Shown here in pieces: positions 14,966-40,652 of a stretch of 50,922 nucleotides of DNA. The stretch comes from Candidatus Nanoarchaeia archaeon (GTDB lineage: Archaea; Nanobdellota; Nanobdellia; Woesearchaeales; SKGA01). Where the stretch lies: positions 1-50,922 of the forward strand of contig JAQUYS010000003.1 in assembly GCA_028691765.1 (NCBI GenBank), in the 5' to 3' direction. Every line of letters starts with the position of its first letter. Position 1 is the stretch's first letter. The position numbers and the translations under genes are program-made. A model generated the notes under the pieces. The model saw nothing but the letters and a program-made list of their open reading frames with translations, did not search any database and was not told the origin of the DNA.

Positions 14966-16264
14966 TCACGGAGTAAGTCTGTCTCTATCTCGCGGAAACA
15001 ATGTAACTTCCCGTATATTTTTTATTCCAAGAATTAACATAGTTAATCTCTCAACACCTATTGCCCAACCTGCATGTGGCGGAGCTCCGTATCTAAATGA
15101 ATCAACATATTCTTTAAACTCTTCAGGATTCAATCCTTTAGCTTTTAATCTTTCAATTAATAATTCAGGAAGATGAATTCTTTGACCACCTGAAGTAATT
15201 TCCATACCTTTGTATATCGCGTCGAATCCTTTAGAAAGAATTGCATTTGCTTTTTCATCTTTAGGCATAATGTAAAAAGGTTTTCCCGCTATAGGCCAAT
15301 CATGTACAAAAATAATTGTGTCGGGGAATAATTCTCCAAGTTTTTCTTCACACTCTCCAGTTAAATCATCTTCTCCAACTTCAACTCCTTCTTTTTTCAA
15401 CAATTCTGCAGTTTCAGAAAATGTTAAATATTTAACAGAAGGAACTTTCAATGAAACTCCTAATAAATCTAATTCAGTTTTATTTTCTTTTAAAACTTTA
15501 TCCACAATATATTGGACAACCTTTCCCATTAAATCCATGACAATTTTATCATCTGCAAAAGCCATTTCAAAATCCATCTGTCTACACTCATTTAAATGTC
15601 TTAATGTATTATGTTTTTCAGCTCTCCAACAAGTAAATATTGAAAAAACTTTTTCCATGGAACAAGCCAACATTTGTTTATACAATTGACAAGATTGAGA
15701 TAAATATGCTTCATCTTCAAAATATTTAACTTTAAAAACATCAGTTCCACCTTCACTTGATGCTCCAATTAAACTAGGAAACACAACTTCCAATGAACCG
15801 TCTTTAATCATAAATTCTCTAAATCCAGTCATGATTGTAGATTGAACCTTAAATATTGCTTGAACTTTTCGTTTATGTAAATCTAAAAATCTGTAATCTA
15901 ATCGTTTAGATAATTCAGTAATAATAGTTTTATCTTTTTCCACAACTAAAATAGGTAAAGAATCTGCAATACTAATTATCTCTAAATTTGAAACTTCAAC
16001 TTCAATTGATTTTTCAGTTATTTCTTCACTTTTTACATTTGCTTTTTTTACCATTCCAGAAATATTAATTACACTTTCAGAAGTTAATTTATCTATTTTT
16101 TCAAAAAGAGTAGGTTCCAAAACAACACACTGCACAACACCAGTAATATCTCTTAACTGCATGAATTTTATTTTACTTTGACCTTTTATTTCTTGAACCC
16201 ACGCATTTATGGACACAATTTGTCCTTCTTTTGAATGTAAGTCTTTAATTTTAGTAAATTCCAT
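14966..16264 (-). CDS. aspS: Aspartyl-tRNA synthetase (archaeal type)
   Basis: Anticodon-binding OB domain (VSINAWVQEIKGQSKIKFMQLRDITGVVQCVV), FRAEKHNTLRHLNE-like motif 2, GAPPHAGWAIGVERLTMLILG motif 3, C-terminal FPRDRDRLTP. Confidence 0.95.
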   Translation of the reverse strand: MEFTKIKDLHSKEGQIVSINAWVQEIKGQSKIKFMQLRDITGVVQCVVLEPTLFEKIDKLTSESVINISGMVKKANVKSEEITEKSIEVEVSNLEIISIADSLPILVVEKDKTIITELSKRLDYRFLDLHKRKVQAIFKVQSTIMTGFREFMIKDGSLEVVFPSLIGASSEGGTDVFKVKYFEDEAYLSQSCQLYKQMLACSMEKVFSIFTCWRAEKHNTLRHLNECRQMDFEMAFADDKIVMDLMGKVVQYIVDKVLKENKTELDLLGVSLKVPSVKYLTFSETAELLKKEGVEVGEDDLTGECEEKLGELFPDTIIFVHDWPIAGKPFYIMPKDEKANAILSKGFDAIYKGMEITSGGQRIHLPELLIERLKAKGLNPEEFKEYVDSFRYGAPPHAGWAIGVERLTMLILGIKNIREVTLFPRDRDRLTP

Positions 16265-30170: not shown

Positions 30171-30425
30171 ATAATTTCCAGTTTATTCACATAATATAAA
30201 TGTTTCCATCGTTTTTATAATTCTTTCTAGAAACATATGCCCAATAATTTTTTATTTAAAAATAAGCCCTAAATCCAATAAAATTACTCAACCCGTAAAA
30301 CCCAAGAAATCCATATTTTAAAACTTTTTCACCCAATTTACACCAAAATTAAAAACCCAAACATTTATAAAACATCCTAATTTCCCCGAATAGTTGATCA
30401 AGTTAGCTTGATTAATGCAATTTAC

Positions 30426-30544
30426 GCCTTGATAGTGTAGTCCGGCCTATCATATCGCCCTGTCGAGGCGATGACCCGGGTTCGAAAACTCAGCAACTGG
30501 CTAATCGACAGCCAAGTGCTGTATCGATTGTCCCGGTCAAGGCG
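30426..30544 (+). tRNA. tRNA-Asp(GTC) with 44-nt intron in the T-loop
   Basis: Acceptor GCCTTGA/TCAAGGC, G73; anticodon arm TCGCC-CTGTCGA-GGCGA; T-stem CCGGG-TTCGAA[intron 30487-30530]T-CCCGG. Confidence 0.9.
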
Positions 30545-30553
30545 CTTTGTTGT

Positions 30554-30660
30554 GAGCTGGTGGCTCAGTCTGGAGAATTAATCGTATTGATTTTTTCGGA
30601 CACTAGAGCACCTGACTTTTAATCAGGTGGTCGCGAGTTCAAATCTCGTCCAGCTCGCCA
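30554..30660 (+). tRNA. tRNA-Lys(TTT) with 30-nt intron in the D-loop, CCA encoded
   Basis: Acceptor GAGCTGG/CCAGCTC, G73, CCA; D-arm GCTC-AGTCTGG[intron 30574-30603]TA-GAGC; anticodon arm CCTGA-CTTTTAA-TCAGG; T-arm TTCAAAT. Confidence 0.9.
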
Positions 30661-40551: not shown

Positions 40552-40652
40552 GGGCCTGTAGCCTAGTCTGGACAGGGCATTCGGCTTCGGGAGCTTTAAT
40601 TTTAGCTGGAGATACCGAAGGGTCAGGGGTTCGAATCCTCTCAGGCTCACCA
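40552..40652 (+). tRNA. tRNA-Arg(TCG) with 23-nt canonical 37/38 intron, CCA encoded
   Basis: Acceptor GGGCCTG/CAGGCTC, A73, CCA; anticodon stem TTCGG/CCGAA; loop CTTCGG[gagctttaattttagctggagat, 40591-40613]A; T-arm AGGGG-TTCGAAT-CCTCT. Confidence 0.92.

Follow-up and report, generated by a model that had tools for sequence, protein, structure and literature searches.

A T-loop insert interrupts the tRNA-Asp gene

Positions 30426-30544 of the window (the whole 50,922-nt stretch analyzed here, which is contig 46 of the 1.09 Mb, 99-contig, 99.5% complete assembly G000) are very probably the gene from which a DPANN archaeon makes its tRNA-Asp(GTC), split in the T-loop by a non-canonical intron at 59/60 that EndA would cut out before RtcB joins the exons. 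The 5' exon (30426-30486, tRNA positions 1-59; all features of this cluster lie on the + strand) contributes the acceptor 5' strand (30426-30432), the T-stem 5' strand CCGGG (30476-30480) and the T-loop bases TTCGAA (30481-30486), after which a 44-nt insert (30487-30530, AACTCAGC...CGATTG) separates position 59 from position 60; the 3' exon (30531-30544) supplies T60, the T-stem strand CCCGG, the acceptor strand TCAAGGC and the discriminator G73. Removing the insert leaves a complete 75-nt tRNA that ARAGORN calls as Asp(GTC), with 7/7 pairs in the acceptor stem (GCCTTGA/TCAAGGC), 5/5 in the anticodon stem (TCGCC/GGCGA, loop CTGTCGA) and 5/5 in the T-stem (CCGGG/CCCGG), just as the original prediction of a T-loop insert at these positions had it. 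The unspliced region draws no ARAGORN call, with or without the anticodon-loop intron option, and no match to Rfam RF00005 at the gathering score; the Rfam search picks up only a fragment of 17.2 bits, the uninterrupted ortholog of G004 scoring 57.0 bits. A group I intron was ruled out, the insert measuring 44 nt against a core of ~200 nt or more, with no Rfam match at the locus.

The T-loop restored by removal, TTCGAAT, is that of the G004 ortholog. This genome, of the same family, carries the same cluster of tRNA-Asp, tRNA-Lys, an rpoH-like ORF and rpoB, with both tRNAs uninterrupted, and has 60 nt upstream of tRNA-Asp the same TATA-like box (TTTATAAAA) that lies 62 nt upstream in the window (30364-30372). 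In the window the neighboring tRNA-Lys(TTT) gene (30554-30660, CCA encoded) is interrupted in its D-loop by about 30 nt (roughly 30574-30603), and its spliced form is called as Lys(TTT). Default ARAGORN and Rfam searches miss this gene as well as tRNA-Asp, and the tRNA complements of genomes like this one may therefore be undercounted. A further member of the family, G003, has the insert of its Asp gene in the anticodon loop instead; the introns of this cluster thus vary among close relatives. Similar D-loop inserts were seen in the tRNA-Lys adjoining tRNA-Asp in G032 (L060) and G012 (L091). The window also encodes a class II D/K/N-type tRNA synthetase (14966-16264).

It is highly improbable that the locus is a pseudogene or decaying copy and that aspartate codons are decoded by another tRNA-Asp. 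Failure of the standard finders on this gene, together with an assembly in 99 contigs, would suit such an origin, but all stems are perfect and a search of G000 with the 75-nt spliced tRNA, addressing the second intact gene that the original prediction had raised, returned no other tRNA-Asp (the next match is tRNA-Glu(TTC)). Moreover, roughly one in three genomes of the order carries such an insert, at the matching position and with a covarying splice motif. G014, a one-contig genome rated 100% complete, also has the T-loop insert, and no intact tRNA-Asp copy is found among its matches.

Other tRNA genes of the genome also appear to be disrupted. At a loose E-value G000 yields 28 tRNA matches, 23 of them above the cut-off, a number so low for a 99.5%-complete genome that further disrupted tRNAs probably await detection. 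Positions 40552-40652 of the window are called as tRNA-Pro(CGG) without the intron option. With it, the call changes to tRNA-Arg(TCG) and a 23-nt intron in the anticodon loop, the Pro call being a miscall of the anticodon caused by that intron; a LAGLIDADG homing-endonuclease-like ORF (PF14528, 39816-40550) ends one base before this gene. Elsewhere in the genome, L022 (G000:C77:16671-16825, - strand) combines an apparent T-loop insert (GGGGTTCAA...GATTTTCCCC) with an anticodon-loop insert, has no unique splicing solution and possibly bears the anticodon TAT, and L023 (G000:C84:2960-3075, - strand) resembles tRNA-Ser and has its insert close to the anticodon stem.

Inserts recur at the same site across the order and in other archaea

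A pattern consisting of the tRNA-Asp T-arm and acceptor stem with 10-40 nt inserted after TTCRA matched 119 of the order's 362 genomes, from 96 of its 223 genera; the count is approximate in that some matches are not tRNA-Asp (e.g., G020, anticodon TTC) and that the insert-bearing genomes G000 (insert too long), G014, G015 and G038 escape the pattern. The reversed pattern used as a control gave 0 matches in the 362 genomes, and the uninterrupted tRNA-Asp pattern matched 100. Thirty loci were fetched, and most were checked upstream, where a complete Asp(GTC) gene is found; many have additional anticodon-loop or D-loop introns. Several DPANN genes (L120, L133, L136, L242 and others) appear to hold two or three introns within one tRNA-Asp (D-, anticodon and T-loop).

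The inserts are 12-44 nt long and unrelated in their inner sequences, with conserved ends and bulges. This distribution bears on the reading in which the insert is retained in the mature tRNA-Asp as an enlarged T-loop, which we regard as scarcely credible: the insert does fold into a stable hairpin, yet across relatives it is the ends and bulges that are kept, in the form of a splice motif, around interiors that share neither length nor sequence, and genes lacking an insert have a normal 7-nt TTCRAAT loop. The T-loop must also pack on the D-loop.

Inserts at this site also occur outside the order. Among named genomes, the pattern without its GAC prefix produced many chance matches in GC-rich bacteria. 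Once a complete acceptor stem, T8 and a GTC anticodon were demanded, 40 loci remained, assigned by record title to Woesearchaeota (the commonest label among named contigs with this intron type), Nanoarchaeota, Aenigmatarchaeota, Micrarchaeota, Thermoplasmata, Nitrososphaerota, unclassified archaea and one "bacterium" (L172), whose tRNA matches the Thermoplasmata ones. Nine loci from uncultured Thermoplasmata (L151, L163, L169, L171, L189, L195, L216, L248 and L261) are interrupted at this tRNA-Asp site too, by GC-rich T-loop inserts that share the central helix. T-arm introns had been described in the original prediction as mainly crenarchaeal, a view at odds with their abundance in this DPANN order and their occurrence in Thermoplasmata and Nitrososphaerota.

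A conserved and mostly relaxed splice motif

In the tRNA-Asp of the window, the 5' half of the putative splice motif (30481-30487) comprises TTCG, one strand of the central helix, and the 5' bulge AAA, with the predicted cut after 30486; the 3' half (30525-30531) comprises CGAT and the bulge TG^T, with the predicted cut after 30530. The central helix has three of four pairs (T55-A, C56-G and G57-C, plus a T54.T mismatch), and the intron interior (30491-30521) forms a hairpin from CAGCA (30491-30495)/TGCTG (30517-30521) and TGGCT (30498-30502)/AGCCA (30510-30514). These helices, bulges and the mismatch are as originally proposed, but an internal loop (CT/TAT) that separates the 5' bulge from the inner helix CAGCA/TGCTG had gone unmentioned; the motif is relaxed on account of it and of the incomplete central helix. 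Both the T.T mismatch and the CT/TAT loop depart from the strict hBHBh' form (a 4-bp central helix with outer helices directly beside 3-nt bulges). The folding energy of the T-arm with its insert lies 3.5 s.d. below that of shuffles of the insert.

In the precursor, the T-stem CCGGG/CCCGG would stack on a helix formed by exon bases T54-G57 and the last part of the intron, and this central helix would be flanked on each strand by a 3-nt bulge. EndA would cut both bulges after their second nucleotide, and RtcB would then join the exons to give the mature T-loop TTCGAAT. Cleavage at these phosphates, the ligation and a single alpha-type EndA (probably a homotetramer) as the agent are predictions from the sequence; the gene and the exact bounds of its insert are read from it directly.

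We examined this motif in 110 inserts (the pattern matches minus near-identical and non-Asp rows, plus G000). Exon TTCR pairs at 4/4 positions with the four nucleotides preceding a 3-nt 3' bulge in 91 inserts and at 3/4 in the remaining 19, such that the 3' bulge and a central helix of at least three pairs, two elements of the bulge-helix-bulge, occur in 110/110; the rate of 4/4 pairing is 2.3% in shuffled introns, and a one-base shift of the partner leaves 0-3 such cases. The 3' bulge is AGT in 63 inserts, AAT in 26 and TGT in 9, while at the 5' bulge AAA and AAT predominate. Covariation links base 57 to its intron partner: A57 faces T in 72 inserts and C in 1, and G57 faces C in 17 and T in 6 (Fisher P=5e-13, a value that ignores shared ancestry in sequences that span dozens of genera). 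Folding energies average 2.2 s.d. below shuffles. A chance origin can be dismissed, since more than 100 genomes share this site together with its 3' bulge and covarying central helix.

The 5' side is less regular. At least two pairs directly beside the 3-nt 5' bulge are found in 27 of 83 introns, against about 11 expected by shuffling, and the motif is therefore relaxed in about two thirds. We take the inserts to be introns, predicted to be cut at a bulge-helix-bulge motif that is mostly relaxed on its 5' side; for the window's gene, the predicted T-loop intron with cuts between the second and third bulge nucleotides now gains support from comparison with more than a hundred related genes and from an uninterrupted TTCGAAT ortholog.

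A single alpha-type EndA and the question of specificity

Searches with PF01974 identified a single EndA in G000, as in most of its relatives, and PF02778 gave one match in G000. The G000 gene lies in a 232-aa open frame and encodes a short alpha-type protein, in which the catalytic triad (Y153, H163 and K194) is conserved across nine aligned members. Its closest solved relative is the Nanoarchaeum equitans chain 3iey_A (E=7.7e-37), the catalytic subunit of a two-subunit enzyme; a PDB search with the N-terminal part alone returned nothing relevant. The N. equitans affinity, with the prevalence of the Woesearchaeota label among named contigs of this intron type, suggests a Woesearchaeales-like position of G000 within DPANN. 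Sequence comparison reveals neither a crenarchaeal-type (CSL) nor an ARMAN-type (ASL) loop in the G000 protein, given that Methanocaldococcus jannaschii 1a79, the other leading PDB match, aligns without gaps over query residues 46-186 and that the segment after the conserved YG is short in all nine aligned members. The features of broad-specificity EndA, a second or fused subunit together with a lysine-bearing loop (15-18 aa for the crenarchaeal loop, 11 aa for the ARMAN loop; PMC12397907), are not seen here. The ligase RtcB is also encoded in G000 (L266, G000:C24:4286-7078, - strand, 996-aa open frame); its matched parts lie about 1.4 kb apart, which suggests an intein.

Alpha4 and alpha2 enzymes are held to process canonical motifs only, efficient cutting of relaxed motifs being confined to (alpha-beta)2 and epsilon2 enzymes (PMC4033280, PMC6379350), and loop-bearing EndA is considered to have co-evolved with scattered tRNA introns (PMC4033280, PMC6379350, PMC12397907). 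The lack of such a loop therefore counts against the intron explanation, as do the T.T mismatch and the internal loop beside the 5' bulge in G000. On balance, we favor the view that an alpha-only, probably homotetrameric EndA lacking CSL, ASL and a second subunit removes relaxed D- and T-loop introns across this large DPANN order. An alternative is that the inserts are introns whose removal needs another factor, an undetected second EndA subunit or a different nuclease, the alpha-only enzyme cutting strict motifs alone; the limits that the reviews place on alpha4 and alpha2 enzymes, the small share of introns paired beside the 5' bulge and the two-subunit assembly of the closest solved relative all speak for it. 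We nevertheless consider this unlikely, as no second PF01974 or PF02778 match was found in G000 or G014, and second PF01974 matches in 15 genomes (searched up to E 10) were sub-threshold only, with E-values of at least 0.048.

We infer one of two things: the order's alpha-only EndA is itself relaxed in specificity, or a partner escaped detection. The original prediction of an endonuclease with relaxed specificity may prove right, but the only EndA found is a short alpha-type protein without the loop that confers this property in known enzymes. An order in which about one sampled genome in three has T-loop introns, and in which EndA is a single loop-less alpha-type enzyme, provides a test of the co-evolution rule. 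Should the favored assignment be true, the accepted view that relaxed specificity needs an (alpha-beta)2 or epsilon2 enzyme bearing a special loop would be mistaken or at least not the whole story, and archaea would have a recurrent intron site at tRNA-Asp 59/60.

Comparison with known systems

Non-canonical tRNA introns are known from Thermoproteales and other Crenarchaeota (Sugahara et al, 2008, as cited in PMC4390854), and T-arm introns from Crenarchaeota and Caldiarchaeum (PMC3293823); tRNAscan-SE 2.0 has models for the non-canonical introns of crenarchaea and thaumarchaea (PMC8450103). Like the crenarchaeal introns, those described here are short, lie outside 37/38, have a (relaxed) bulge-helix-bulge and may number several per tRNA. 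They differ in their DPANN host, in their recurrence across an order at a single site in a single tRNA (Asp 59/60), and in an EndA that is alpha-only and without the crenarchaeal loop, as opposed to the loop-bearing crenarchaeal (alpha-beta)2 enzyme.

Nanoarchaeum equitans, also a DPANN host, supplies the closest solved relative of the G000 EndA and has an (alpha-beta)2 enzyme acting on relaxed substrates (PMC4033280, PMC4090602), but this includes a second subunit (NEQ261, 3iey_B) of a kind found in none of the genomes checked here. The D-, V- and T-arm introns of Caldiarchaeum subterraneum and the non-canonical introns of Thaumarchaeota (PMC3293823, PMC8450103) share the T-arm location; they belong to other phyla, and a two-subunit EndA is listed for Thaumarchaeota (PMC4090602). 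Three Nitrososphaerota loci of our scan (L170, L173 and L190) agree with the DPANN inserts in both Asp site and central helix. A search of the open-licence literature, with subscription papers outside its scope, found no earlier report for this group. The intron itself belongs to a known kind, the non-canonical archaeal tRNA introns; as far as the open-licence literature shows, what is new is how often it occurs in a DPANN order, that it recurs at tRNA-Asp 59/60 and that it is paired with a loop-less alpha-type EndA.
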